Below are positions 36,432-49,083 of a DNA stretch of 64,000 bases, one piece after another. Made by a program: the position numbers and the translations under genes. Source of the DNA: Halomarina ordinaria (GTDB taxonomy: Archaea > Halobacteriota > Halobacteria > Halobacteriales > Haloarculaceae); contig NZ_JARRAH010000002.1 in the NCBI RefSeq assembly GCF_030553305.1, positions 1 through 64,000 on the forward strand. The letters are read 5' to 3'. The notes beneath the pieces were generated by a model. That model ran no database searches. It saw nothing but the letters and a program-made list of their open reading frames with translations, and was not told the DNA's origin. Numbering within the stretch: position 1 is the first letter of the stretch; each line of letters starts with the position of its first letter.

Positions 36432-36639
36432 ATCCTCGTACTCGATGAAGCATCCGAACGGGTGTGCTCCAGCTACCGGGTACCGCAGCGTCTCGAAGCG
36501 GCCCGAGCGATGTCAGAGGACGTCCAGTGCCGTCCCAGAACGCTCGACGGACGTTTTCGGCGTGTCTTCGCTCCTCACAGGTAGTCGTACTGCGTCACTC
36601 GACGGTGCTCGAACCGAGGGACCGACCGGGAATTCGTCC

Positions 36640-37479
36640 TCAGACGGTCGGCTTCGTCAGCACGTTCGAGGTCCCGACCCGGTACGAGTGTGCCCGTCCC
36701 CAGGTGGTCTCGACGACCTCGTACTCCCGCTCGCCGTCGGCGATCTCGTGGAGTCCGTCGAGGAGGTCGTCGAGCAGCGACAGTTCGGACCCGGCGAGTG
36801 GCTCGTTGTGGCTGGTGACGAGGACGTCGAAGCGGCCATCGTCGCGCCAGTCTCTGAGCGTGGCCACCGATTCGAGATAGGCGTCGAGGCTACTCCCCTC
36901 GAACAGGACGTACAGACCGTGGTCGACGTGGACGATGTCACCGCCGTAGAGAACGCGCGTCTCCGGGTCCAGGACCCCGAGGTGGCCGGGGGAGTGTCCC
37001 GGGAGGTGGTGGAACTCGAGGGTGCGGTCGCCGAGCGGAAGGCCGTCCGCCATCGGGGCGGGCGCTGCCTCGAACGCCTCGACCGTGTACTCGTCGGGGT
37101 CGACGTCGTCGGGAAACGCGTTGTCGTCGGCGAGCCACTGTCGAGCGAACTCCCGCGGCCGGTGGGCGAACTCGTCGGAGATACTGTCGACCGAAATCCG
37201 GCCGTCACCGGGCAGTTCGACCGGACTGACGACCACCTCGTCGAACTGGGACGCGGCCCCGATGTGGTCCCAGTGCGTGTGGGTGAGGACGACCGTGACG
37301 GGCGTCTCGACCAGGTCGTCGACGAGTCCTCGGAGGGCACCGACGCCGACGCCGGTGTCGAGCAACACTGCCCGGGAAGAGCCCTCGACGAGGTACATGC
37401 CGTACTTGTCGCACTCGTCGATGCCGTAGGTCCCGTCCACCACCCGGGAGACGTCGTACCAGTCGTCCGTGGCGTTCAT
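36640..37479 (-). CDS. MBL-fold metallo-hydrolase
   Basis: 279 residues from ATG 37479. Zinc motif VVLTHTHWDHIGAASQF (HxHxDH), later LEFHHLPGHSPGHLGVLD (H), YGGDIVHVD (D), and LVTSHNEPL near the end (H). The GGD and SHN pattern fits glyoxalase II-like or lactonase-like enzymes; the substrate is not evident. A ctttacta box is about 28 bases before the start. A longer open frame extends upstream into the divergent gene but has no homology there. Confidence 0.88.
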   Translation of the reverse strand: MNATDDWYDVSRVVDGTYGIDECDKYGMYLVEGSSRAVLLDTGVGVGALRGLVDDLVETPVTVVLTHTHWDHIGAASQFDEVVVSPVELPGDGRISVDSISDEFAHRPREFARQWLADDNAFPDDVDPDEYTVEAFEAAPAPMADGLPLGDRTLEFHHLPGHSPGHLGVLDPETRVLYGGDIVHVDHGLYVLFEGSSLDAYLESVATLRDWRDDGRFDVLVTSHNEPLAGSELSLLDDLLDGLHEIADGEREYEVVETTWGRAHSYRVGTSNVLTKPTV

Positions 37480-37581
37480 ATCGTGTGATGTCGTGCCACG
37501 GTAGTAAAGGCGTCCGTCTACCGTGCGCCACGGACGCGCCACGATAGCAAGGACTATGTGAACACGTCCGCCCACTCGGGC

Positions 37582-38127
37582 ATGGGACGGCTTCCGTACG
37601 TGACGCAGGACGACCTCGACTCGGAGTACGAGGACCTCGTCGTGTCGTCGCTCCAGCCGGGCAAGACCGTAAACGTGTACAGCGCCATCGGCAACAACCA
37701 GGAGGTGCTGCGCGGCTTCCGCGAGTTCCTCGGGTCGCTCTGGACCCACTCCGGTCTCACCGACCGCCAGCGGGAACTCGTCATCCTGACCGCCGCCTCC
37801 GAGGTCGGCTCGGAGTACGAGTGGCACCAGCACGTCACCATCGGCTCCGACGCCGGACTCACACCCGAAGAGATGTCGGCGCTCGCCCGCGACGACCGGA
37901 CCCCGTTCTCGGCGGCAGAACGGACGCTCATTGCCTACACGCGTGCGGTGGCCCGCGGCCGCGTCACCGACGGACTCCACGACGCCCTGCTCGCTCACTT
38001 CGACGAGGCGACCGTCGCCGGGACCGCGTCGACCGCCGCCGGCTACGTCGCGCTCGGCCGCGTCATCGACGCCCTCGGCGTCGAGCTCGAAGCGGGCGAC
38101 GAGTTCGCCGGCTGGGACCTCGAGTAG
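37582..38127 (+). CDS. Carboxymuconolactone decarboxylase-family protein
   Basis: 181 residues of the CMD/AhpD-like all-helical fold. Core segment LTDRQRELVILTAASEVGSEYEWHQHVTIGSDAGLTPEEMSALAR has the ExxxH pair found in CMD proteins; the CxxC pair of AhpD peroxidases is replaced, so a decarboxylase- or lyase-like role is likelier than peroxidase. ATG 37582 (MGRLPYVTQDD) is chosen because it starts the conserved region. Convergent with the hydroxyacid dehydrogenase, whose stop directly abuts this one. Confidence 0.8.
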   Translation: MGRLPYVTQDDLDSEYEDLVVSSLQPGKTVNVYSAIGNNQEVLRGFREFLGSLWTHSGLTDRQRELVILTAASEVGSEYEWHQHVTIGSDAGLTPEEMSALARDDRTPFSAAERTLIAYTRAVARGRVTDGLHDALLAHFDEATVAGTASTAAGYVALGRVIDALGVELEAGDEFAGWDLE

Positions 38128-39012
38128 TCAGTCGCCGGTCTCGTCGGTCACCATCGTCTCGCGGAGGTAGTCGTAGACGTCCGTCATGTCGCCGTCGTCG
38201 CCGAAGCGCGCTCGCGTACAGCCGACCTGACTGCGAACGACGCTGCCCAGTAGAAGCGGGACGCGACTGTCCTCGGCGAACTGTAACAGGAGCCTGAGGT
38301 CCTTCTCCATCAACCCGAGAGCGAAATCGACGTCCCGGCCGGCCGAGACGTAGTCGGGGAACTTGTCCTCGGTGGCGGAGTTCCGGCCGGTGCTGACGTT
38401 GAAGACGTCGCACATCGTCTCGACGTCGAGGCCGACCTGCTGGCCGAGCACGATAGCTTCGGAGGTCGCGACCATCGCCGTGTTCGACAGGTAGTTGTTG
38501 AGCAGTTTCACGGCGTGGCCGTGGCCGGGGTCGTCCCCGACGTGCACGACGTTCGCCGCGAACGCGTCGAGGTACTCGCGACAGGCGTCGAGCGTCGCCC
38601 GGTCGCCGCCGACCATCACGGTGAGGGTGCCGTTCTCCGCACCTGAGGCGCCCCCGCTGACGGGAGCACCGAGGACGGTCACGCCGTCGTCGGCGAGTCG
38701 CTCGGCGAGCGACCGCGTCATGGCCGGCGTCGACGTCGTGGTGTCGACGATCGCCGCACCCGCTCCGAGCGTCGTCTCCAGTTCCGAGACGACAGTCTCG
38801 ACCACGCCGGGATTCGGCAGCGAGAGGAAGACCACGTCCGCCTCGGCCCCGACGTCGGCCGCCGAAGCCACTCCCTTCGCCCCCGCGGACTCGACGGCCG
38901 CCATCGCGTCCCGTCTCCGGTCGAAGACGACGACGTCGTGTCCGTCCCGAACGAGGTGCGTCGCCATCCGACCGCCCATCCGTCCGAGGCCGATGAACCC
39001 GAGGGACGTCAT
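38128..39012 (-). CDS. NAD(P)-dependent beta-hydroxyacid dehydrogenase
   Basis: 294 residues of the 3-hydroxyisobutyrate/6-phosphogluconate dehydrogenase family. N-terminal Rossmann motif GFIGLGRMGGRMATHLVRDGHDV (GxGxMG), then DTTTSTPAM, LGAPVSGGASGAENGTLTVMVGG (substrate loop) and catalytic Lys in GHGHAVKLLNNYLS. C-terminal helical domain intact. It oxidises a beta-hydroxyacid or reduces the matching semialdehyde; the specific substrate is unknown. ATG 39012 starts at the first strand; the same frame stays open for 470 codons upstream, by chance. Confidence 0.88.
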   Translation of the reverse strand: MTSLGFIGLGRMGGRMATHLVRDGHDVVVFDRRRDAMAAVESAGAKGVASAADVGAEADVVFLSLPNPGVVETVVSELETTLGAGAAIVDTTTSTPAMTRSLAERLADDGVTVLGAPVSGGASGAENGTLTVMVGGDRATLDACREYLDAFAANVVHVGDDPGHGHAVKLLNNYLSNTAMVATSEAIVLGQQVGLDVETMCDVFNVSTGRNSATEDKFPDYVSAGRDVDFALGLMEKDLRLLLQFAEDSRVPLLLGSVVRSQVGCTRARFGDDGDMTDVYDYLRETMVTDETGD

Positions 39013-39164
39013 GCGACACGCATCAGCGCCTCGGGACAAGTACCTACCGTCGGCACACGTCGGACGGCAGCCATCGGACGGTCGCTCTCTCGGGACTGAG
39101 CACCGTTCAGGTCTCGACCGAGCGTCGTTCCGTTCGACGGCCGGGCTCGGTGGGGAATCGGTAC

Positions 39165-39809
39165 TCAGCCGTCGGACTGGACCGCGTCGTCGATGGGGGT
39201 GTCGCCGCCGAAGAGCCGGATGGTCTCGCCGACCGTCTCGTCGTGTGCGAGACAGGCGACGACCGTCTGGGCGACGTCGGCGCGCGGAATCTCCGCGCCC
39301 GCCGCCTCGGGGTGTTCGAAGGCCGCCGAGACGCGTCCCGTTCCCTCGTCGTCGGTGAGCGTGGTCGGTCGCAGAACCGTGGCGTCGAGCGGAGACCACT
39401 CGAGGTAGTCGTCGGCACACCGCTTGGCCACCTGGTACGGGCGGATGGCCTCCGGGCTGGCCGACGGGTCGCCCGCCCCGTACGCGCTGACCATGACGAA
39501 CCGGTCGATGCCGTGCTCGACGCACGCGTCGACCGCTCGGCGCGCGCCCCACAGGTCGACCAGGAGCGTCTCGTCCCAGCCGGTCCCCCCGCCGGAACCG
39601 GCCGTGAAGACGACCGCGTCGGCCCCCTGAAGTGCCGGGACGAACTCCCCCTCGAGGTCGCCCACTCGCGGTTCGCCGCCGCGTTCGCGGACCGCGTCGA
39701 ACTGTGACTCGGCTCGCACGACGCCGAGTGCGTCGTGCCCGGCGTCCGCGAGTCGGGCGACTACCTCGCGGCCGATTCCACCGTTCGCACCGATGACTGC
39801 GACGTGCAT
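39165..39809 (-). CDS. NAD(P)H-binding atypical SDR
   Basis: 214 residues. Start MHVAVIGANGGIGREVVARLADAGHDALGVVR with the GxxGxxG nucleotide motif; DAVVFTAGSG and DRFVMVSAYGAGDP are characteristic of NmrA/NAD(P)-binding epimerase-like SDRs. The usual YxxxK is PYQVAKR here. Likely an NADPH-dependent reductase or a redox sensor. Not obviously in an operon with its neighbours. Confidence 0.82.
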   Translation of the reverse strand: MHVAVIGANGGIGREVVARLADAGHDALGVVRAESQFDAVRERGGEPRVGDLEGEFVPALQGADAVVFTAGSGGGTGWDETLLVDLWGARRAVDACVEHGIDRFVMVSAYGAGDPSASPEAIRPYQVAKRCADDYLEWSPLDATVLRPTTLTDDEGTGRVSAAFEHPEAAGAEIPRADVAQTVVACLAHDETVGETIRLFGGDTPIDDAVQSDG

Positions 39810-39929: not shown

Positions 39930-40532
39930 TCACTCCGGTTGCCCCGGTTCGACACCGGAGAGGAGGTCGTCCCCGTAGGGATAGTCCATCTGTGCCTTGA
40001 TCTCGGCGCGAACGTCTTCGTCCCCCCACCGGTAGCAGAGGTGAAGCCCGAGGTCGATCGCCGAGGTGACGCCCCGCGCGGTGATCACGTCCCCGTCGTC
40101 GACGACGCGGTCCTCGACGACGGTCGCGTACTGCGCGAGTTCCTCGAAGGCCATCGGATGGGTCGTCGCACGGTGCCCGTCGAGCAAGCCCGCGGCACCC
40201 AGGAGGACGGCACCAGTGCAGACGGAGACCTTGTACTCGCAGTCGGCCGCGGTGCGGAGCCAGTCGACGAACGCCACGTCGGTCCGGTACGCCTCGGTTT
40301 CGACCGTCCCCGGGACGATGACCGCGTCGTAGGCGTCGAGTGGCTCGCCCACCTCGGTCGCGGTGAGCGAGAGACCGCCAGTCGCGGTCACCGTCGCCCG
40401 TGACGGGGGCGCACAGATCTCCCACGAGACGTCGTCCCGGAACCCCATCGTGACCAGTCGAGTGACCGGGTCGTACACCCCGACGAAGTCGAGCGCCGTC
40501 AACTCGTCGTACACGACGAACGCGATTCTCAT
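39930..40532 (-). CDS. DJ-1/PfpI-family protein
   Basis: 200 residues of the glutamine amidotransferase class-1-like fold. FVVYDELTALDFVGVYDPV at the start, nucleophile elbow KVSVCTGAVLLGAAGLLDGHRATTH with Cys and neighbouring His, and a late GVTSAIDLGLHLC. This matches the AraC-type/isonitrile hydratase-like (InhA) branch of DJ-1 proteins. Isonitrile hydratases act on isonitriles, so its place just left of the nitrile hydratase genes is noteworthy, but it is on the opposite strand. A gttatgag box is about 25 bases upstream. Confidence 0.82.
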   Translation of the reverse strand: MRIAFVVYDELTALDFVGVYDPVTRLVTMGFRDDVSWEICAPPSRATVTATGGLSLTATEVGEPLDAYDAVIVPGTVETEAYRTDVAFVDWLRTAADCEYKVSVCTGAVLLGAAGLLDGHRATTHPMAFEELAQYATVVEDRVVDDGDVITARGVTSAIDLGLHLCYRWGDEDVRAEIKAQMDYPYGDDLLSGVEPGQPE

Positions 40533-40778
40533 GTCCGAGAGTGGAAGTACGTGCTCATAACCGTAGTGCCGTTCCTCGACACGGTGCCGGTTCTTCCGGC
40601 TCCCCTACCGAGACCACACGATGACACACCAATCCGGTACGAGGTGACGGGTCACGCGCCGTGACTGCTGGTGCTGCTTCGGTGTGTGTACGGGACACGA
40701 CCAGGGCGGAGTTCGAAGCGTACGTCGCCGGCACGCGGGCCAGCAAGTATTAACAACGTGCTATGCTATGACGCCACT

Positions 40779-41486
40779 ATGGACGGTATCCACGACCTCG
40801 GGGGGATGCAGGGGTTCCCCCCGGTGGACCCACACGACGACGTCGTCGGCTATCACGACGACTGGGAGGGGCTCGTCCACAGCGCCTTCACCGGGACGCT
40901 CGGCTCCGGCGTCCACAACATGGACGAGTTCAGACACGCCATCGAGCGGATGGACCCCGCACACTACCTCACGGCGGCCTACTACGACCGGTGGCTGGTC
41001 GGCGTCTCGACGCTCGCCGTCGAGAAGGGCGTCATCTCGCCCGGGGAACTGCGCGAGCGGACGGCCGCGATGGCGGACGGCGAGGCGACGGTCACCGAGC
41101 GTCGTGACCCGACGCTCATCGACGACCTCGTCGACGGCGTCGTCGACGCGTACGCGGCGTGGGAGGACGACCGCGAACCCGCCTTCGAGGCGGGCGATAC
41201 CGTCCGCGTCCGACACATGCACCCGGACGGGCACACCCGCTGCCCGGGCTACGTGCGCAACGCCTACGGAACGGTCACCGAGTACCGCGGAACCCACACC
41301 CTGCCCGACGCGCACGCCCACGGCGGCGACGGGTCGGAACCGGTGTACAACGTCGCCTTCGACCTGGGCGCACTCTGGGATGCCGACGGTGGGGAGGACC
41401 ACAGCGGTGACTCACAGTCGGAGAGTGCGGGCGACACGATTCGCGTCGAACTCTGGGAGAGCTACCTCGAACACGTAAACGAATGA
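40779..41486 (+). CDS. nthB: Nitrile hydratase subunit beta
   Basis: 235 residues. Beginning [17 protein letters not shown], with [41 protein letters not shown], then the SH3-like barrel [27 protein letters not shown] and C-terminal [10 protein letters not shown], it matches NHase beta throughout. With alpha it hydrates nitriles to amides. The start ATG 40779 lies about 28 bases after a gtattaac box, so the transcript is leaderless. An insert rich in Asp, His and Gly ([15 protein letters not shown]) interrupts the barrel. Stop overlaps the alpha start by four bases. Beta-alpha-activator order is that of cobalt-type operons. Confidence 0.93.
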
Positions 41487-42130
41487 GCGACCACGACCAC
41501 CCACCGGACGACTCGACCCGAGCATCGATCGACGAGACCGTCGAAGCCCTCGCACGGGAGTACGACCCCGAACCGCGCGCCCGCGCCCTCCAGTCGCTGT
41601 TGGTCGAGAAGGAACTGCTCTCGACCGACGCCGTCGACGCCGTCGTCTCCACGTACGAACGGGAGATCGGCCCGCTGAACGGCGCGAAGGTCGTCGCGCG
41701 CGCCTGGTCCGACGAGGCGTACCGCCGCCGATTGCTGGACGACGGGATGGCGGCCATCGAGGAACTCGACGTCGAGGTGAACGGCGACGTCATGGAGATC
41801 GAGGTCCTGGAGAACACCCCGGAGACCCACAACGTCGTCGTCTGTACGCTCTGCTCGTGTTACCCGTGGGCGGTCCTCGGACTCCCACCGACGTGGTACA
41901 AATCGCCCTCGTACCGCTCGCGCGTCGTCCGCGAACCGCGCGCCCTGCTCCGCGAGGAGTTCGGTGTCGACCTCGACGACGACGTCGCGGTCGACGTCTG
42001 GGACAGCACCTCCGAACTCCGCTACATGGTCCTCCCCCAGCGACCGCCGGGGACCGACGGCCTGGACGAAGCGGAACTCGTCGAACACGTCACGCGCGAC
42101 TCGATGATCGGGGTCGACCGGTTGGCATGA
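41483..42130 (+). CDS. nthA: Nitrile hydratase subunit alpha, cobalt type
   Basis: 215 residues. The metal-binding claw is VCTLCSC at 120-126 (Cys121, Cys124, Ser125, Cys126). Thr at 122 is the residue found in cobalt-type enzymes, where iron types have Ser. [23 protein letters not shown] and [28 protein letters not shown] are family signatures. Two claw Cys become sulfenic and sulfinic acids in characterised enzymes. The N-terminal DHDHPPDD stretch is acidic. Overlapped by both neighbours (ATGA junctions), so the three NHase genes are translationally coupled. Confidence 0.94.
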
Positions 42131-42672
42131 CCGACGAGGACGGGCGGTCGGACCGAGACGATGCGGCCTCGTCATCCGGGGAGGTGCTCTCGGCCCTCCT
42201 GAACGACGCCGACGAACCGAGGTTCGAGGCGCCGTGGCAGGCACGAGCGTTCGCACTCGCCGTCGCGCTCTCCTCCTACGATGCGGATATCTATTCGTGG
42301 AACGACTTCCAGCGACGCCTCGTCGCGGAGGTCGGGGCCGAGGGGGACGGTGCGGCCGGGCCCGACGGCACGTCGTCGGGGGGAGCGTCCGCCTACACCG
42401 AGTCGACCTACTACGAACAGTGGCTCCGGGCGCTGGAACGGGTCCTGCTCGAGGAGGGGCTGGTCGACCCGGACGAGGTCCAGCGGCGAGTGCGGGCGTT
42501 CGCCGACGGCGACCGCGACGCGTCGGAGTTCGTCGAGGGCGAACACAGCCACGACCACGCGCACCCGCACGACCACGCACACGACCACGCCGAGGACCAC
42601 GACCGTTCACACGGGACGGGTTACGACCACGGCCACGACCACGACCACGCGCGCGGCGGAGACGACCGGTGA
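42127..42672 (+). CDS. Nitrile hydratase activator (P14K-like) with His-rich tail
   Basis: 181 residues. The middle ([39 protein letters not shown] and [27 protein letters not shown]) resembles the N-terminal domain of NHase beta, as in activators that deliver cobalt to alpha. About 45 C-terminal residues (from codons near 42540) are dominated by His and Asp repeats ([16 protein letters not shown], then more). The tail probably binds metal and stores or transfers cobalt. Start ATG 42127 overlaps the alpha stop and the stop overlaps the DUF6282 start. Confidence 0.85.
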
Positions 42673-43523
42673 GCGTCTCGCTGGAGGGGGCGGTCGACGT
42701 CCACGTCCACACCGCGCCGGACCTGGTCGAGCGGTACGCGTTCGACCTCGACCTCGCCCGCGAAGCGCGCGACGCGGGGATGCGCGGCCTCGTGGTGAAG
42801 AGCCACGTCGTCCCGACCGTCGGGCGGGTCGACCAGGTGAACCGCGCGCTCGGCGAGGACCTGCTCTACGGAGGTGTCGCGCTGAACGCCGGGACGGGGG
42901 GCCTCAACCCCGAGGCGGTGCGAATCGCCCTGGAACTGGGCGGCCGAATCGTCTGGCTTCCGACCGCCTGGAGCGCGAACCACGCCCGGCAGGAGCGCCG
43001 GGCCGGCGCGGACTCGTTCGTCGGCCAGCGGCTCCCCGGCCCGGACGAGGAGCTCGTGGTGGCGCGCGACGGGTCGCTACTCGAGGAGACCAGCGAGATC
43101 GTCGACCTCGTCGCCGAGTACGGCGCGGTCCTCGGGACCGGTCACGTCGGCGCTGAGGAGGTCGAGGCGGTGGTGGCCGCCTGCGCCGACAGGGGTGCCG
43201 ACGTACTCGTCAATCACCCCTTCTTCAGGGCCACGGAGCTCTCGATAGCGACCCAGGAGTCGCTCGCCGAGCAGGGGGCGACGATGGAGTACTGCGCCTA
43301 CGCGGTCGACAGCACCGAGGGGCACTCCGTCGAACGCGTCGCGGAGGCCGTCGCCCGGGTCGGCCCCGAGCGCTGTCTGCTCGCCACCGACTACGGACAG
43401 GTCGGCAACTCGCCCGTCGACGGCCTGGCCGCGTTCGCCCGCCGCGTCGTCGACGCCGGAGTGCCCGCGTCGACGGTCCGAGAACTCGTGCGCGACCGGC
43501 CGGTCGAGTTGTTCGGTCTCTAG
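42669..43523 (+). CDS. DUF6282-family TIM-barrel-like protein
   Basis: 284 residues from GTG 42669. It begins with AVDVHVHTAPDLVER (His12, His14, the HxH of metal-dependent hydrolases), followed by DAGMRGLVVKSHVVPTVGRV, NPEAVRIALELGGRIVWLPTAWSANH, VLGTGHVGAEEV, LVNHPFFR and LLATDYGQVGN, the pattern of a PHP/amidohydrolase-like barrel with Lys, His and Asp at the expected strand ends. DUF6282 has no assigned function. A four-base overlap with the activator gene makes it part of the nitrile hydratase transcript, suggesting hydrolysis or rearrangement of the amide or a related product. Confidence 0.75.
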   Translation: MSVSLEGAVDVHVHTAPDLVERYAFDLDLAREARDAGMRGLVVKSHVVPTVGRVDQVNRALGEDLLYGGVALNAGTGGLNPEAVRIALELGGRIVWLPTAWSANHARQERRAGADSFVGQRLPGPDEELVVARDGSLLEETSEIVDLVAEYGAVLGTGHVGAEEVEAVVAACADRGADVLVNHPFFRATELSIATQESLAEQGATMEYCAYAVDSTEGHSVERVAEAVARVGPERCLLATDYGQVGNSPVDGLAAFARRVVDAGVPASTVRELVRDRPVELFGL

Positions 43524-43707
43524 TGGGCGAGCGGGGAGCGACGTCGACACGGATGCGAGGAACCCGCCACTCGACCCCTCCCCGGCGAACCGGTGTGGCC
43601 AGCCGCGCCACTGGTCGGGGGCGAGTCGTCGGTTCGTCGACAGGAGACGCGTCGTCGCTCGATACCCCGGCGATATCTTTATTTCAATCGGTTACACTGC
43701 TAGTGCC

Positions 43708-43773
43708 ATGCCTGTCAGACACAAGCACAATCATCAGTACGTGGAGTACGTTACGGGAGGGCGACATGTCTAG
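43708..43773 (+). CDS. His-rich 21-codon micro-ORF before the symporter genes
   Basis: ATG 43708 lies 28 bases after a ctttattt box (43677-43684), the spacing of a leaderless start. It encodes 21 residues, five of them His, beginning MPVRHKHNHQ. Its stop codon overlaps the ATG of the small symporter subunit at 43766, preceded by ggaggg. This layout would couple translation of the symporter subunit to the micro-ORF. The peptide itself has no known relatives; a leader-peptide role is inferred. Confidence 0.5.
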   Translation: MPVRHKHNHQYVEYVTGGRHV

Positions 43774-44086
43774 CCTCGAACTCCGGGCCTTCCCGATACT
43801 CCCGCGGTCGAGGGCCGGGAAGGTGCTCCTGGCGGTCGTCCTGGTCGCGTTCGTCGCGATCGGACTGTCGGTGTTCGGCCTCGTCTTCAACGAACCCCGG
43901 CTGTTCGGACCGTTCCCGGAGAGCGTGTCCTGGCACTACTTCTGGTACGGCGTCATCTACCTCGTGCTCGTGGCGACGTACGTCCTGCTGTTCAAGCCGT
44001 GGGCCGACGCGGCCGAAGACCTGGACGTCGCGGACGTCGACGCGCCCCCCGAGGTAGAGGAACCGGAGGTGGTCTCCGATGACTGA
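43766..44086 (+). CDS. Small membrane subunit of SSS symporter
   Basis: 106 residues with two membrane helices (KVLLAVVLVAFVAIGLSVFGLVF and HYFWYGVIYLVLVATYVLLFK) and an acidic C-terminus (DLDVADVDAPPEVEEPE). Short two-helix proteins of this kind are paired with sodium:solute symporters of the DUF3311-type arrangement. Start at ATG 43766 with a ggaggg ribosome-binding site; overlaps the symporter gene by eight bases. Confidence 0.7.
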   Translation: MSSLELRAFPILPRSRAGKVLLAVVLVAFVAIGLSVFGLVFNEPRLFGPFPESVSWHYFWYGVIYLVLVATYVLLFKPWADAAEDLDVADVDAPPEVEEPEVVSDD

Positions 44087-45632
44087 CCCCCTCGCGCTGC
44101 AGGGGGGAATCCTCACGCTCCGGAACGTCCTGCTGGTCCTCGGGCTCTACATGGTGGTCGTCCTCGTCATCGCCTACTACGCGAACAAGCACCTCAGCGT
44201 CGAGCCCGAGGACTACTACCTCGGCGGCGGGCTCGGCACGCTGGTCCTGACGGGGACCGTGCTCGCGACGTGGTACAGCACCTTCGCGTTCCTCGGGGGA
44301 CCGGGCACCTACTACACGAGCGGGACCTCGTGGCTGTACTTCGCCTTCTTCAACATCACCGGCGCCCTGCTCATCTGGGTGGTCGGGACCCGGTTCTGGC
44401 TGCTCGGGCAGAAGTTCGGCCACATCACCCCCTCCGACCTCGTGGCGGGGTTCTACGAGGAGGACGACGGCGTCCGGATACTCGTCGCGGCCATCGCCAT
44501 CCTGGCACTCGTCCCGTACGCGGTCATCCAGCTCACCGGGGCCGCACAGGCGCTCGTCGGCGCGATGGGCTCGCCGCAGTACTTCACGTGGGGGGTCGTC
44601 GCGCTCATGGTGATGGTGACGTTCTACCTGTACGTCGGCGGGCTCCGGGCGGTGGCCTGGATCGACACGCTCCAGGGCGCCATCTTCATGAGCCTGCTCG
44701 TCATCACCGCGGGCGTCGTCGCCCTCTGGGCGGGTGGCATCGAGACCGGGTTCTCGCTCGCCCTCGAGAACAACGAGGACCTGTGGGTCTTCACCGAGTC
44801 GGAGTCCCCCGGCGCCTGGTACACCGGGGCGCTCATCTGGACGGTCGCGTGGGTGTTCATCCCCCACATGTGGCAGCGGATGCTGATGGCGAAGAGCCCG
44901 AAGGTCATCGCCAAGACGTCCATCCTCTCGGGGACCGCCGCGCTGTGGATAATCACGTTCTCCGCGGTCATCATCGGGGGGGTCAGTTCGGGCATGATCC
45001 CCGAACTCCCCGACGGCATCCCGTCGGACGGACTGATGACGTACGTGTACACGGAGATCTTCCCCGCCGGGGCGCTGTTCATCGTCGTGGCCGCGTTCGC
45101 CGCGGGGATGTCGACCATCAGCAGCCAGATCCTCACCTCCAGTTCCATCTTCGTCCGCGACGTCGTCAAACGGCCGTTCCGCCCCGAGATGGCCTCGACG
45201 CGGGAGGGGCAGATCGGCCGGTACTTCACCGTCGTGTTCTCCGCCATCGTGCTGGCGTTCGCGCTGAGTCCGGCCGCGGAGCAGGCCATCATCCCGCTCG
45301 CCACCGACGGGGTGGCGCTCGCGTTGCTCTACCTCCCCTGTGTCGTCGGGCTCTTCGTCTGGGAGGGCGCCTCGACCGCAGGGGCGAAGTGGTCGCTCCT
45401 GCTCGGTCTCGTCTTCATGCAGCTCTCCATCTGGACGCCGTTCGGCGCTATCTTCCCGTTCTTCGGCCCGCCGGTGTACGGACTTCTGTTCGCCACCCTC
45501 GTCTACTACGTCGTCTCGAAGGTGACGACGCCGGTTCCCATGGCCCACCAGAACGAGTACCGCGAGGTACTCATCAAGGGGATGCGCGTCCACGACCCGT
45601 CGGCGACCGACGCGGTCCCGGGCGACGACTGA
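44079..45632 (+). CDS. Sodium:solute symporter (SSS family)
   Basis: 517 residues, about 13 helices. Family motifs include YYLGGGLGTLVLTGTVLATWYSTFAFLGGPG, the WTVAWVFIPHMWQRMLMAKSP loop and the AAFAAGMSTISSQILTSSSIFVRDV stretch (the GMST/SSxL signature of the sodium site). It imports a small organic solute with sodium. Between nitrile hydratase and amidase genes it is the obvious candidate to bring in a nitrile, amide or an organic acid; the substrate is not determinable from sequence. Confidence 0.9.
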   Translation: MTDPLALQGGILTLRNVLLVLGLYMVVVLVIAYYANKHLSVEPEDYYLGGGLGTLVLTGTVLATWYSTFAFLGGPGTYYTSGTSWLYFAFFNITGALLIWVVGTRFWLLGQKFGHITPSDLVAGFYEEDDGVRILVAAIAILALVPYAVIQLTGAAQALVGAMGSPQYFTWGVVALMVMVTFYLYVGGLRAVAWIDTLQGAIFMSLLVITAGVVALWAGGIETGFSLALENNEDLWVFTESESPGAWYTGALIWTVAWVFIPHMWQRMLMAKSPKVIAKTSILSGTAALWIITFSAVIIGGVSSGMIPELPDGIPSDGLMTYVYTEIFPAGALFIVVAAFAAGMSTISSQILTSSSIFVRDVVKRPFRPEMASTREGQIGRYFTVVFSAIVLAFALSPAAEQAIIPLATDGVALALLYLPCVVGLFVWEGASTAGAKWSLLLGLVFMQLSIWTPFGAIFPFFGPPVYGLLFATLVYYVVSKVTTPVPMAHQNEYREVLIKGMRVHDPSATDAVPGDD

Positions 45633-45736
45633 GTCGAGGAGACCCGACACTCGACCCCCCTGCACGGCCGCCCCGTCCTGTGTCGCGTTTCACGCGACGT
45701 CGATACGCCTATACCGTCGTTCTCCTACCCGATGCT

Positions 45737-45796
45737 ATGCAGAACGGTATCACAGCACGCTCGGCGACGGTGACGCTCCCGGGGGTATCGGCGTGA
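45737..45796 (+). CDS. 19-codon micro-ORF overlapping the amidase start
   Basis: ATG 45737 lies about 25 bases after a cctatacc box (45708-45715). It encodes 19 residues starting MQNGITARSAT and stops at tga 45794-45796, which overlaps the amidase GTG (45793) in a four-base GTGA junction. The same layout is seen before the symporter subunit. A translational coupling role is inferred; the frame could also be fortuitous. Confidence 0.45.
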   Translation: MQNGITARSATVTLPGVSA

Positions 45797-47070
45797 CCGT
45801 CCAGCGGGCACCGCTCGACGAGGCAGCCATGGCTCTCCGGACCGGCGAACGCGCCGTGACCGACTACGTCGCCGAACTGTACGAGCGTATCGACGCATTC
45901 GACGACGACGTTCGGGCGTGGGTCGACGCGGAGGCGGCGGCGCTCGCGGAGCGCTCTCCTGACCCGTCGCATCGACCGCCGCTGTACGGCGTGCCGGTCG
46001 GCGTGAAGGACGTCTTCCACGTGGACGGGATGCCGACACGGGCGGGGTCGGACCTCCCCCCGGCAGAACTCGTCGGCCAGCAGGCCGCGGTCGTGACGTC
46101 GCTTCGGGCCGCCGGTGCGCTCGTCCTGGGGAAGACCATGACGACCGAGTTCGCCTACTTCGAACCGGGACCGACCCGGAACCCGCACGACCTCGCGCAC
46201 ACGCCGGGCGGGTCGAGCAGCGGGTCGGCCGCCGCCGTCGCCGCGGGGATGTGCCCGCTCGCCATCGGCACACAGACCTACGGGTCGATCGTCCGACCGG
46301 CGACGTTCTGCGGTATCGTCGGCTTCAAGCCCAGTTACGGTCGTATCCCGTTCGACGGCATCATCCCGCTGGCCCCATCCGTGGACCACGTCGGCTTGTT
46401 CACACAGGACGTCCCTGGTATGGAACTCGCGGCCTCCGTCTGCGTCGACGACTGGGACCCATCGACGGTCGACGAACACGACCGACCCGTCGTCGGGGTG
46501 CCAGCAGGGGAGTACCTCGACCAGGCGTCAAAGAGAGGTCTCGACCGCTTCGAGGAGCACGTCGCCACCCTCGAGCGCGCCGGGTTCGAGGTCCGCCGGA
46601 CGGTGGCGTTCGACGACATCCGGACGGTCAACGACCGGCACGACGACCTGGTCGCCGCCGAGGCAGCGCTGGCGCACCACGAGTGGTTCGACGCGCACGC
46701 GGATCGGTACGCCGACAGTACGGCCGACCTGATTCGTGACGGCCGGGCGGTCTCGATCGAGACGCTCGCCGACGCTCGGCGCGAGTGTGTCCGGCTTCGC
46801 GCGTCGGTCGTCGACACGATGACCGAGCACGGCATCGACGTCTGGGTCGCTCCCGGTGCGCCCGGCCCCGCCCCTGCAGGCATCGATACGACCGGCGACC
46901 CCGTCATGAACCTCCCGTGGACCCAGGCCGGGGTGCCCGCGATCGCGATTCCTGCCGACGACGTCGACGGTCTGCCAGTCGGCGTCCAGTGCATCGCGGC
47001 GTTCGGGGCGGACGAACGACTCCTCGCGTGGGCGACGCCGATCGCGAACGTGCTTCGCGGTGTCGCGTGA
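45793..47070 (+). CDS. Amidase (amidase-signature family)
   Basis: 425 residues. Ser-cisSer-Lys triad: Lys72 in YGVPVGVKDVFH, the GGSSSGSAAAVAAG loop (Ser at 141-143) and nucleophile Ser165 in GTQTYGSIVRPATFCG. The C-terminal half is shorter and freer in sequence than that of GatA. It hydrolyses amides to acid and ammonia. Following nitrile hydratase it would finish the nitrile-to-acid pathway. The start is GTG 45793, coupled to the preceding micro-ORF. Confidence 0.9.
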   Translation: MTVQRAPLDEAAMALRTGERAVTDYVAELYERIDAFDDDVRAWVDAEAAALAERSPDPSHRPPLYGVPVGVKDVFHVDGMPTRAGSDLPPAELVGQQAAVVTSLRAAGALVLGKTMTTEFAYFEPGPTRNPHDLAHTPGGSSSGSAAAVAAGMCPLAIGTQTYGSIVRPATFCGIVGFKPSYGRIPFDGIIPLAPSVDHVGLFTQDVPGMELAASVCVDDWDPSTVDEHDRPVVGVPAGEYLDQASKRGLDRFEEHVATLERAGFEVRRTVAFDDIRTVNDRHDDLVAAEAALAHHEWFDAHADRYADSTADLIRDGRAVSIETLADARRECVRLRASVVDTMTEHGIDVWVAPGAPGPAPAGIDTTGDPVMNLPWTQAGVPAIAIPADDVDGLPVGVQCIAAFGADERLLAWATPIANVLRGVA

Positions 47071-47331: not shown

Positions 47332-47361
47332 CCCCCTCTCACACAGCGGTTTTCCTGAGTT
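47331..47361 (-). repeat. Origin recognition box ORB1
   Basis: Minus-strand copy of the 19-base core aactcaggaaaaccgctgt (47343-47361) followed by gtgagagggggg. Its 30-base match to ORB4 on the opposite strand is perfect, making the two a long inverted pair around the candidate unwinding region. Confidence 0.85.
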
Positions 47362-47397
47362 ATCCACGCGAAGGGGAGGCCAGTAGCGGCTGGTCGA

Positions 47398-47424
47398 CCC
47401 CTCACACAGCGGTTTTCCCGAGTT
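47398..47424 (-). repeat. Origin recognition box ORB2
   Basis: Minus-strand copy of the core with one change (aactcgggaaaaccgctgt, 47406-47424) and a shortened G-tract (gtgagggg). Same orientation as ORB1, 45 bases away. Confidence 0.8.
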
Positions 47425-47654
47425 CCCCACCGAACAGCGGAGCACTCACTTCAGGTCGAACCGACGGTACTACTACTAGCTATCATAACTGTAGTGGTAG
47501 TAGTAGTAGTTGCCGTATCTTGTACAGGGCAAAACCACTATACTGTGTGACGTCTGACAGCGGTTTTCCTGAGTTAGATTCCGCGAACCAGTGATTCTTT
47601 ATATGTGTAACCGGTGCAACTAGCGAGTCGCGGTGTGGATAGACGAGCGACGCC
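47425..47654. other. Candidate DNA unwinding region of the origin
   Basis: Between the left and right boxes the sequence is AT-richer than its surroundings, with tctttatatgtg near 47596-47607 and complementary trinucleotide runs (tactactac at 47468-47476 and gtagtagtagtagt at 47497-47510) that can fold onto each other. This is the expected position of the duplex unwinding element. Confidence 0.55.
47557..47575 (-). repeat. Origin recognition box ORB3 (core only)
   Basis: A perfect copy of the 19-base core in the ORB1 orientation but without the flanking G-tract, so it may be a weaker (mini-ORB) site. Confidence 0.75.
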
Positions 47655-47687
47655 AACTCAGGAAAACCGCTGTGTGAGAGGGGGAGG
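47655..47687 (+). repeat. Origin recognition box ORB4
   Basis: Plus-strand core 47655-47673 followed by gtgagagggggagg. Inverted relative to ORB1-3, the usual haloarchaeal arrangement, and about 50 bases before orc1. Confidence 0.85.
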
Positions 47688-47705
47688 TAGCCAGCGATTC
47701 GGGGG

Positions 47706-47732
47706 ACTCGGGAAACTCGGGAAACTCGGGAA
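47706..47732 (+). repeat. Three tandem 9-base repeats before orc1
   Basis: actcgggaa repeated three times head to tail, ending 6 bases before the orc1 start codon. The unit resembles the left half of ORB2 (aactcggga), so these may be half-sites for autoregulation by Orc1. Confidence 0.7.
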
Positions 47733-47738
47733 AGACTG

Positions 47739-49052
47739 ATGTCGCTGGATGCGTCAGTCTCTCTCACCATGGACGACGTCGATTCGATCTTCGCTGACGA
47801 CGTAGAGTTGATCAAAAACGCCGAGGTCCTCGAAGAGGACTACACCCCGACGGAGATCCTGTGTCGGGACGACGTCCTTCGGCAGTACACGAGCGTCTTC
47901 AAGCCGATCTACAAGGGTCGTCCGCCACAGAACGCCTTTCTCTACGGCGATACGGGGGTCGGAAAGACCGCGGCGACGAAGTACCTCCGGGAGAACCTCG
48001 AACACGACATCGAGAAGAAGAACGACCAGTTGCCCGAGGAGAAGCGGATCACGCTCAACGTCGTCTGGATCAACTGCGAGAACTTCACGACCGGTGATCA
48101 CAAGACGTCGTCGTACCAGGTCGCCGTGGGCATCGTGAATCGACTCCGGGACAAAGGGAACCGAATCACGGGAACCGGGTACGCCCCACAGGACGTCTAC
48201 GACATCATGTACGAGGAACTGGACAACCTCGAGGGGACCGTCCTCGTGATCTTAGACGAAGTCGACAAGATCGGGAACGACGACACACTCCTCTACGAAC
48301 TCCCACGCTCTCGCGACATCGGCTACGTCGAAAACGTCCGCGTCGGCGTCATCGGTATCAGTAACGACTACACCTTCCGAAAGAACCTCTCCCCGAAGGT
48401 CAAAGACAGCCTGTGTGAGACCGAGATCAAGTTTCCCGCCTACAACGCGACGGAGCTCTCGGACATCCTCAACGCTCGTGCGGAGCTCGCGCTCTACGAC
48501 GGTGCCTACACTGCGGAGACGATCTCGCTCTGTTCGGCACTCGCGTATCAGGAGGCATCGGGGAGCGCTCGTCGAGCGATCCGACTGCTCCGACGGTCGG
48601 CAGAGATCGCCGAAGAGAACGGCTCGGAACAGATCGAGGAGGAGCACATCCGCCAGGCCGACAAGGACCTGGAGTACGGCAACATCGTCGAGTCCATCGT
48701 CGACCAGGACGACGAGAAGCTCTACATCCTGAAGGCACTCGCCCACCTCGATACCGCGGGCCTCACGCCTGCCCGCACGCGGACGATTCACGCCGCGTAC
48801 TCCCGGGTAGTTCGGTCCTACAACACGGCGAGCGGGAAGGACCCCCTCACGCAGCGCGGGATGTTCAATCACCTCTCGAAACTGGTGATGTTCGGCTTCG
48901 TGAACACCATCGACCACAACAAGGGCGTCGGTGGTGGACAGTGGAACGAACACGAGTTCAGCGACGACCTCGACGCACAGAAAGTGAGAGACGCGTTCGA
49001 GGACCGAAACCTCGAATGGCTGACGATCGACGTGCGTGGAATCGAGGAGTAA
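47739..49052 (+). CDS. orc1: Orc1/Cdc6-family replication initiator
   Basis: 437 residues. An AAA+ ATPase with Walker A GDTGVGKT (70-77) and Walker B VILDEVDK (Asp173, Glu174), sensor motif GVIGISNDY, and a C-terminal winged helix (ARTRTIHAAYSRVVRSYN...LTQRGMFNHLSKLVMFGFV). It binds the ORB elements beside it and opens the origin. ATG 47739 directly follows the tandem repeats; a later Met at residue 11 is less likely. The stop codon overlaps ORB5. Such orc1-ORB pairs mark active or once-active origins on chromosomes and megaplasmids. Confidence 0.94.
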   Translation: MSLDASVSLTMDDVDSIFADDVELIKNAEVLEEDYTPTEILCRDDVLRQYTSVFKPIYKGRPPQNAFLYGDTGVGKTAATKYLRENLEHDIEKKNDQLPEEKRITLNVVWINCENFTTGDHKTSSYQVAVGIVNRLRDKGNRITGTGYAPQDVYDIMYEELDNLEGTVLVILDEVDKIGNDDTLLYELPRSRDIGYVENVRVGVIGISNDYTFRKNLSPKVKDSLCETEIKFPAYNATELSDILNARAELALYDGAYTAETISLCSALAYQEASGSARRAIRLLRRSAEIAEENGSEQIEEEHIRQADKDLEYGNIVESIVDQDDEKLYILKALAHLDTAGLTPARTRTIHAAYSRVVRSYNTASGKDPLTQRGMFNHLSKLVMFGFVNTIDHNKGVGGGQWNEHEFSDDLDAQKVRDAFEDRNLEWLTIDVRGIEE

Positions 49053-49083
49053 CTCAGGAAAACCGCTGTTGGACCCCCGGTGG
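49051..49083 (+). repeat. Origin recognition box ORB5 overlapping the orc1 stop
   Basis: The 19-base core (49051-49069) begins inside the orc1 stop codon taa and is followed by a tggacccccggtggg tail. It has the same orientation as ORB4, so orc1 is bracketed by two boxes. Confidence 0.75.

Follow-up and report, generated by a model that had tools for sequence, protein, structure and literature searches.

A predicted cobalt-type nitrile hydratase linked to a DUF6282 gene and a sodium:solute symporter in the haloarchaeon Halomarina ordinaria

Introduction

The closest described relatives of the locus analysed here are the bacterial operons of cobalt-type nitrile hydratase (NHase). The locus lies in positions 1–64,000 of contig NZ_JARRAH010000002.1 of the haloarchaeon Halomarina ordinaria (assembly GCF_030553305.1); this whole 64,000-nucleotide stretch is called the window below, and the gene set treated spans 36.6–47.1 kb of it. 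The window resembles the bacterial operons in having orthologues of the alpha, beta and activator genes, the alpha-subunit motif CTLCSC and a nearby amidase gene. It differs from them in that a gene of the DUF6282 family is joined to the NHase genes, that it has its own dehydrogenase, carboxymuconolactone decarboxylase (CMD) and sodium:solute symporter (SSS) genes, that the amidase gene stands outside the conserved blocks, and that no CbtA/CbtB is found among the genes annotated at 36.6–47.1 kb.

On balance, gene content, gene order, predicted fold and conservation lean towards a catabolic module of patchy distribution, probably carried on plasmids, whose substrate would be an organic acid or zwitterion that bears a nitrile or amide group; every chemical step in this reading, that of the NHase included, is drawn from family membership or context. 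For DUF6282, a family on which our literature search found no paper, the module would suggest a first function open to test. It also places in haloarchaea a cobalt NHase that looks intact and comes with its own matched symporter and dehydrogenase, whereas the pertinent sections of a 2009 survey of 47 archaea report no Co-binding NHase (PMC2667541). A 2025 paper reports nthA in two ammonia-oxidizing archaeal lineages (PMC12625717). No paper pairing nitrile hydratase with haloarchaea was found in a literature search, and papers that name both nitrile hydratase and Halobacteria describe no haloarchaeal NHase in the parts covered.

Results and discussion

A gene set shared by three haloarchaeal genomes

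The genes and candidate signals of the locus are as follows.

36643–37479, minus strand: MBL-fold (metallo-beta-lactamase) hydrolase (PF00753, E = 1.3e-16)
37558–38127, plus strand: CMD, carboxymuconolactone decarboxylase/AhpD-family protein (PF02627, E = 1.4e-11)
38128–39012, minus strand: HIBADH-like protein, resembling 3-hydroxyisobutyrate dehydrogenase/tartronate semialdehyde reductase (PF03446, PF14833)
40745–40753, plus strand: TATA-like box AAGTATTAA, of putative function, 26–34 bases 5' of the beta start codon
40779–41486, plus strand: NHase beta subunit (PF21006, PF02211, TIGR03888)
41483–42130, plus strand: NHase alpha subunit, with the CTLCSC motif (TIGR01323, PF02979)
42127–42672, plus strand: NHase activator/accessory protein with a His-rich C-terminal tail (TIGR03889)
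42669–43523, plus strand: DUF6282 protein, GTG start (PF19799)
43677–43684, plus strand: AT-rich TATA-like box CTTTATTT, of putative function, 82–89 bases 5' of the small-protein start codon
43766–44086, plus strand: small membrane protein, partner of the SSS
44079–45632, plus strand: SSS-family sodium:solute symporter (PF00474)
45793–47070, plus strand: amidase-signature amidase, GTG start (PF01425)

Direct reading of the open reading frames bore out a first-pass annotation of this DNA on two points: the NHase beta, alpha, activator and DUF6282 genes (40779–43523) are joined by overlaps of four bases each (ATGA, ATGA and GTGA), and the symporter pair (43766–45632) and the amidase gene (45793–47070) follow in the same direction, all on the plus strand. 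The small membrane open reading frame, for which Pfam and NCBIfam gave no match at E 0.001, overlaps the SSS gene by eight bases. Gaps of 242 bases between DUF6282 and the small open reading frame and of 160 bases between SSS and amidase mean that, by overlap, the operon consists of the first four genes only. That annotation had taken 40779–47070 for the whole set, a span that omits upstream conserved genes at 36600–39053, among them the CMD and dehydrogenase genes. The HIBADH-like dehydrogenase scored under every NCBIfam equivalog cut-off.

Two other copies were compared with that of the window. First, a contig scan for close relatives of DUF6282 gave 49 loci, one of which (L105), on a plasmid record of Halomarina halobia, has the same gene order as the window: MBL, CMD, HIBADH, NHase, DUF6282, small protein and SSS. 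Its CMD, HIBADH and small proteins are 85%, 87% and 80% identical to those of the window. Second, a locus (L077) in genome G134, probably a Halalkalicoccus judging from an inferred genus name, holds the module genes within about 14 kb. Identities to the window are 81–82% for SSS, 70% for HIBADH, 65% for CMD, 61% for DUF6282, and 57%, 76% and about 50% for NHase beta, alpha and activator; a homologue of the small SSS partner, 53% identical, lies just 5' of SSS in the G134 copy (L164). In L077 the DUF6282 gene belongs to a different unit, in which it overlaps by four bases a MOFRL/glycerate 2-kinase-like gene that is followed by an enolase gene. The enolase scored over its equivalog cut-off and the glycerate 2-kinase-like protein under its own; the copy also carries genes for a creatininase-family protein, an acyl-CoA dehydrogenase and a second CMD-like protein. 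An apparent MBL match in L077 was dropped, as it was antisense to the CMD gene and came from a 452-amino-acid open reading frame over-extended at its start.

By gene content, the module shared by the window, Halomarina halobia and the probable Halalkalicoccus is thus the HIBADH-like dehydrogenase, CMD, NHase, DUF6282 and the small protein/SSS pair. The NHase alphas of the three copies form one clade (support 97/92).

The symporter and DUF6282 are linked to NHase in the same genomes

The genes were surveyed in 391 genomes of the class Halobacteria (86 genera), drawn evenly from a larger group; up to three SSS, eight CMD and six HIBADH first-look candidates were scored per genome, and the chance figures below treat genomes as independent. 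Neighbouring genes were taken from a codon-score caller that can miss genes, such as the L077 NHase and the amidase of another NHase locus, L056, both of which were later recovered.

Physical linkage of NHase and DUF6282 was observed, in fetched stretches of 20 kb, in two genomes, that of the window (G000) and G134. The rough probability of this by chance is 3e-4, given five DUF6282 copies in four genomes of 3.6 Mb, and the linkage is above chance. The SSS matched PF00474 over the cut-off (E = 3.5e-35) and is one of seven SSF genes in the window's genome. Its subfamily (E<=1e-100) was found in 2 of the 391 genomes, the same two, G000 and G134, that link NHase to DUF6282; such a coincidence has a chance of about 1.3e-5 if genomes are independent. 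The proposed co-occurrence of NHase with the symporter therefore held for this subfamily, and its distribution supports the assignment of the SSS to the NHase–DUF6282 gene set. Compared with transporters of known substrate, the SSS scored under both cut-offs (panF, 136.1 versus 328.05; MctP, 63.3 versus 625).

The nitrile hydratase belongs by sequence to the cobalt type

All three NHase proteins scored over the curated cut-offs of their NCBIfam families: beta with TIGR03888 (191.6 bits, cut-off 152.2), alpha with TIGR01323 (269.5 bits, cut-off 249.85) and the activator with TIGR03889 (64.6 bits, cut-off 46). Residues 1–231 of beta match the Co-type NHase beta 3qxe, and the top Protein Data Bank (PDB) match of alpha is the Co-NHase alpha 4ob1 (E = 4.6e-81). 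The motif CTLCSC was read in the window alpha and in the 30 other alpha open reading frames called at haloarchaeal NHase loci; the assignment of CTLCSCY to the Co type follows PMC2667541. By these sequence marks the window NHase is of the cobalt type.

Thiocyanate hydrolase has three subunits, whereas the locus has two subunits and an activator. The alpha subunit also matched the thiocyanate hydrolase gamma equivalog TIGR03887, and did so under the cut-off (174.8 bits versus 291.45), TIGR01323 being passed over its own. A thiocyanate hydrolase, or any NHase-family enzyme other than a nitrile hydratase, is therefore highly improbable in our view.

Conserved blocks end before the amidase gene

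The nucleotide alignment of the window with the Halomarina halobia locus consists of three main blocks. The first (36600–39053), with the MBL, CMD and HIBADH-like genes, is 84.6% identical; the others are the NHase–DUF6282 block (40739–43523) and the small protein–SSS block (43636–45635), and the block structure as such is conserved at 84–85%. The NHase block opens some 30 bases 5' of the beta start, where both sequences have a AAGTATTAACAACG stretch, and closes at the DUF6282 stop codon. The box AAGTATTAA is identical in both; similarity starts at 40739, and further upstream the sequences have diverged. The SSS block, after a diverged stretch, starts at 43636, includes the CTTTATTT box in both sequences and extends to slightly beyond the SSS stop codon. 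The overlap of activator and DUF6282 is also present in Halomarina halobia; the spacers separating the blocks have diverged. This is the pattern that separate transcription units conserved together would be expected to give.

The amidase (PF01425, E = 1.2e-71) was searched for at NHase loci with tblastn (E<=1e-3); three of these loci, L060, L073 and L078, have less than 5 kb on one side. Of the 31 other haloarchaeal NHase loci, L056 alone gave a homologue, which lies on the opposite strand about 1.5 kb past the activator (PF01425, E = 5.6e-90); none was found in the other 30, L077 included. The 20.9 kb of L105 hold no amidase homologue. Among the loci compared, the window alone has a same-strand amidase beside a haloarchaeal NHase.

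For comparison, NHase alpha was matched in 179 plasmid records, and nine of these (six bacterial and three of Haladaptatus, a non-random choice) were opened by hand. In all four annotated bacterial loci (Parageobacillus, Thioclava, Aminobacter and Pantoea) an amidase is close by, and two of them also have CbtA/CbtB. As to the unannotated bacterial records, that of Rhodococcus (L158) matched amidase by tblastn and that of Streptomyces (L155) did not within 3 kb. On the three Haladaptatus plasmids, no gene annotated as amidase, DUF6282 or SSS lies closer than 6 kb to NHase.

The locus had been read as a single operon for import and hydrolysis: NHase would form an amide, the adjacent amidase the acid, and DUF6282 would perform an extra step. 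The order of the genes on one strand fits this view, as do the amidases usually found beside bacterial NHases and, though inverted, the amidase of L056. However, similarity to L105 stops at 45635, ahead of the amidase and of the 160-base gap that precedes it, the amidase is missing from nearly all other haloarchaeal NHase loci compared, and it is one of four amidase-family genes in the genome. We consider the single operon rather unlikely. The claim of a complete route survives in part: a Co-type NHase, an appended DUF6282 and a matching SSS were found, but not one operon running through the symporter, since there are two conserved blocks, each with what looks like its own TATA-like box, nor an amidase belonging to them. 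By conservation, the amidase gene is adjacent to the shared module and outside it.

DUF6282 is predicted to be a metal enzyme of the amidohydrolase fold

The DUF6282 protein matched PF19799 with 205.2 bits (cut-off 26.8, E = 1.1e-60), and a sequence search of the PDB gave nothing significant (lowest E, 0.22). Its AlphaFold model is a TIM barrel (mean pLDDT 93.3, pTM 0.92). Among the 50 VIA matches listed, almost all are structures of the amidohydrolase superfamily, TatD, phosphotriesterase or dipeptidase; these matches have Z of 19.3–20.4, with 229–258 residues aligned and root mean square deviations (rmsd) of 2.9–3.4. The top Foldseek match, 2dvt, is a decarboxylase. Five residues (K44, H46, H159, H183 and D241) are invariant in 17 haloarchaeal DUF6282 sequences, and an HxH at 12–14 is invariant in the nine closest, an alignment in which the closest relatives are 61–65% identical. 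Conservation of HxH, H, H and D is the pattern expected of a metal site, and DUF6282 is accordingly a predicted, putatively metal-dependent TIM-barrel enzyme of the amidohydrolase fold. The predicted barrel, with HxH, H, H and D at conserved places as candidate metal ligands, resembles the amidohydrolase superfamily (dihydroorotase, isoaspartyl dipeptidase, TatD, phosphotriesterase and 2,6-dihydroxybenzoate decarboxylase); DUF6282 differs from it in that identity is 10–19% among the matches listed and that strand 2 carries an invariant Lys44/His46 at its end.

In other haloarchaea, the closest relatives of this DUF6282 were seen with genes for a C-N hydrolase, an FAD/FeS oxidase, an amidohydrolase-2 protein, an HTH_10 regulator and an ABC importer. 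The set with C-N hydrolase and FAD/FeS oxidase is present at 7 of the 20 loci L085–L104 (L087, L088, L089, L091, L092, L095 and L098), five of which also have an MmgE/PrpD gene, and at 7 of the 49 loci of the contig scan (L106–L111 and L146), some from the same organisms as the first seven. Importer families were scanned in L087, to which the other loci were matched by homology. In L087 the binding protein of the importer is of the OpuAC type seen in glycine-betaine systems, and it is accompanied by permeases and by an ATPase that matches CBS; an initial LIV-type label for the importer beside the closest DUF6282 relatives was ruled out by the OpuAC match, and the substrate class was accordingly widened to zwitterions. 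Each of these operons has, like the window, a C-N bond enzyme, a hydroxyacid-type oxidoreductase and an importer. To judge from this parallel gene content, NHase, HIBADH and SSS would in the window replace the C-N hydrolase, FAD oxidase and ABC importer.

Outside haloarchaea, neighbours were counted at 35 of 37 loci (133 genes), L126 and L143 being dropped because their DUF6282 gene was not called; L147 and L151–L153 were partial and excluded. Among the 25 commonest of 184 families, the most frequent are 2-hydroxyacid dehydrogenase (7), DctM (6), CitMHS (5) and RraA-like (5); amidohydrolase-2 (3), C-N hydrolase (2) and MmgE/PrpD (2) also recur. A tblastn search of DUF6282 loci L112–L153 did not find NHase alpha. 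By annotation, the recurrent partners of DUF6282 are genes for the breakdown of organic acids and C-N compounds, each found at only a minority of the loci, with NHase as a special partner. In a separate observation at L097, L099–L101, L103, L112, L119, L129 and L138, in haloarchaea and actinobacteria, the neighbours of DUF6282 include a UGSC-family gene and a gene of about 350 amino acids without Pfam match.

DUF6282 could itself be the amide hydrolase that follows NHase, as a metal-dependent stand-in for the serine amidase. Such a role would suit the amidohydrolase-fold model, the overlap of its gene with the NHase genes, its presence in L105 and L077, where an amidase homologue was not found, and the C-N hydrolase gene near its closest relatives. 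That same C-N hydrolase, however, could already perform the amide step in those seven loci, and the recurrent neighbours across phyla are acid transporters and hydroxyacid dehydrogenases. The lack of an NHase alpha match in L112–L153 and the decarboxylase as top Foldseek match also argue against this role, and we hold it only as a tentative, rather doubtful possibility.

Distribution of the genes and weight of the evidence

NHase alpha was found in 31 of the 391 genomes. The surmise that NHase is rare in haloarchaea is thus right by genome count, yet these genomes belong to 17 of the 86 genera. DUF6282 was found in 22 genomes, in 21 of them over the cut-off. CMD relatives (E<=1e-20) are present in 132 genomes, so CMD is not diagnostic of the module; HIBADH relatives (E<=1e-70) are present in 14. 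An MBL homologue (61%) adjoins CMD and HIBADH at locus L174. Around the HIBADH gene of another locus, L173, there are genes for acyl-CoA dehydrogenase, MmgE/PrpD, an acetyl-CoA hydrolase/transferase-family protein and MaoC/mesaconyl-CoA hydratase; homologues are present in L175.

Several observations weigh against a coherent module. First, NHase and DUF6282 occur together in four genomes compared with 1.74 expected (P about 0.09); the expected association of the two was borne out as physical linkage, whereas genome-wide co-occurrence is not clearly above chance. Second, in the stretches fetched, 30 of 32 NHase loci are without DUF6282 and 20 of 22 DUF6282 places are without NHase (22 of 23 places were covered, the other being a weak match in G381, E = 7.5e-4, under the cut-off), so that neither needs the other. 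Third, only three genomes have the module, two of them closely related, and outside the lineage of the window the distant linkage was observed a single time. In that distant copy, L077, DUF6282 is outside the NHase transcription unit and the MBL gene was not found with a corrected query. In the DUF6282 tree the three copies linked to NHase do not group together, a result that neither shows nor excludes a single origin. MBL–CMD–HIBADH (L174) and HIBADH–CMD (L173) occur without NHase. The importer beside the closest DUF6282 relatives is an ABC system of OpuAC type and not a carboxylate transporter, and the recurrent neighbour families cover only a minority of the 35 non-haloarchaeal loci.

In a rival reading, NHase would be a stand-alone enzyme of detoxification or nitrogen scavenging, and DUF6282 and SSS would be neighbours by an accident of plasmid shuffling. 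Neither DUF6282 nor this SSS is present at 30 of the 32 sampled haloarchaeal NHase loci, and the three Haladaptatus plasmids point the same way. This reading is unlikely, in our judgement: the SSS subfamily is confined, among the 391 genomes, to the two with NHase–DUF6282 linkage, and the last overlap and the block structure are kept at 84–85% nucleotide identity in Halomarina halobia.

A proposed pathway

In the favoured reading of a catabolic module, the two-part SSS symporter would import a charged substrate. The activator, with its His-rich tail, may help to load cobalt, and NHase would then hydrate the nitrile group to an amide. DUF6282, as a metal-dependent hydrolase of the amidohydrolase fold, would cut the next bond, either the amide C-N bond or a ring or lactone bond, and the HIBADH-like dehydrogenase would convert the resulting hydroxy acid by oxidation or reduction. 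In the L077 version, the hydroxy acid may drain through the glycerate 2-kinase-like enzyme and enolase. The adjoining amidase may serve the amide step in the window's genome, but would be replaceable or unrelated.

A more specific version, to which we give low credence, couples nitrile hydration to a DUF6282 whose direct substrate is the NHase product. The enzyme would work as an amidase, or as a hydrolase that deaminates the product or opens a ring, and glycerate/2-phosphoglycerate would be reached from there by way of hydroxy acids. If it were true, DUF6282 would be a general enzyme for C-N-bearing organic acids and zwitterions, in front of which NHase, C-N hydrolase and other partners are exchanged.

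Natural fusions of alpha and activator

At 16 of the 32 haloarchaeal NHase loci sampled, alpha and activator are in one open frame, with a linker of 24–49 residues (L054, L057, L060, L062–L065, L068–L072, L074, L075, L079 and L080). All 10 fused proteins scanned, out of the 16, scored over the cut-offs of both TIGR01323 and TIGR03889 in one chain, and 13 of the 16 have at least seven His in the first or last 60 residues. The alpha tree requires three changes of fusion state, forced by well-supported branches, and each fused group stands among unfused relatives. Three gains are the natural reading of this tree; one gain with losses would be a less natural one.

Cobalt insertion is described as self-subunit swapping, in which activator-bound alpha is exchanged into the enzyme, in laboratory work that also reports engineered beta-alpha and beta-alpha-P14K fusions (PMC4709657). 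A natural alpha–activator fusion is named neither in the relevant portions of a review (PMC7193024) nor in those of a survey of eukaryotic beta-alpha fusions (PMC3323583). The haloarchaeal fusions bear on the accepted model and would constrain it, as a tethered alpha could undergo the usual swapping only if the chain were cut.

Flanking genes and a probable replication origin

Two genes lie between the first block and the NHase block.

39165–39809: NAD_binding_10 gene
39930–40532, divergent from NHase beta: DJ-1/PfpI-family gene

They were considered as isonitrile-hydratase-like or other pathway genes, and were rejected as core genes because neither L105 nor L077 matches them and because the DJ-1 gene scored under the cut-offs in its NCBIfam matches. 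DJ-1 homologues lie near DUF6282 in L102 and L104, though the other two module copies have no match.

Directly 3' of the amidase lies an Orc1/Cdc6-type gene (47769–49052) with Cdc6_lid and Cdc6_C over the cut-off. It is flanked by origin-like repeats at 47332–49069, namely CTCACACAGCGGTTTTCCTGAGTT and its inverse, a perfect inverted pair of 30 nucleotides. On a contig of 247 kb, these repeats and the Orc1/Cdc6 gene probably mark a replication origin beside the NHase locus.

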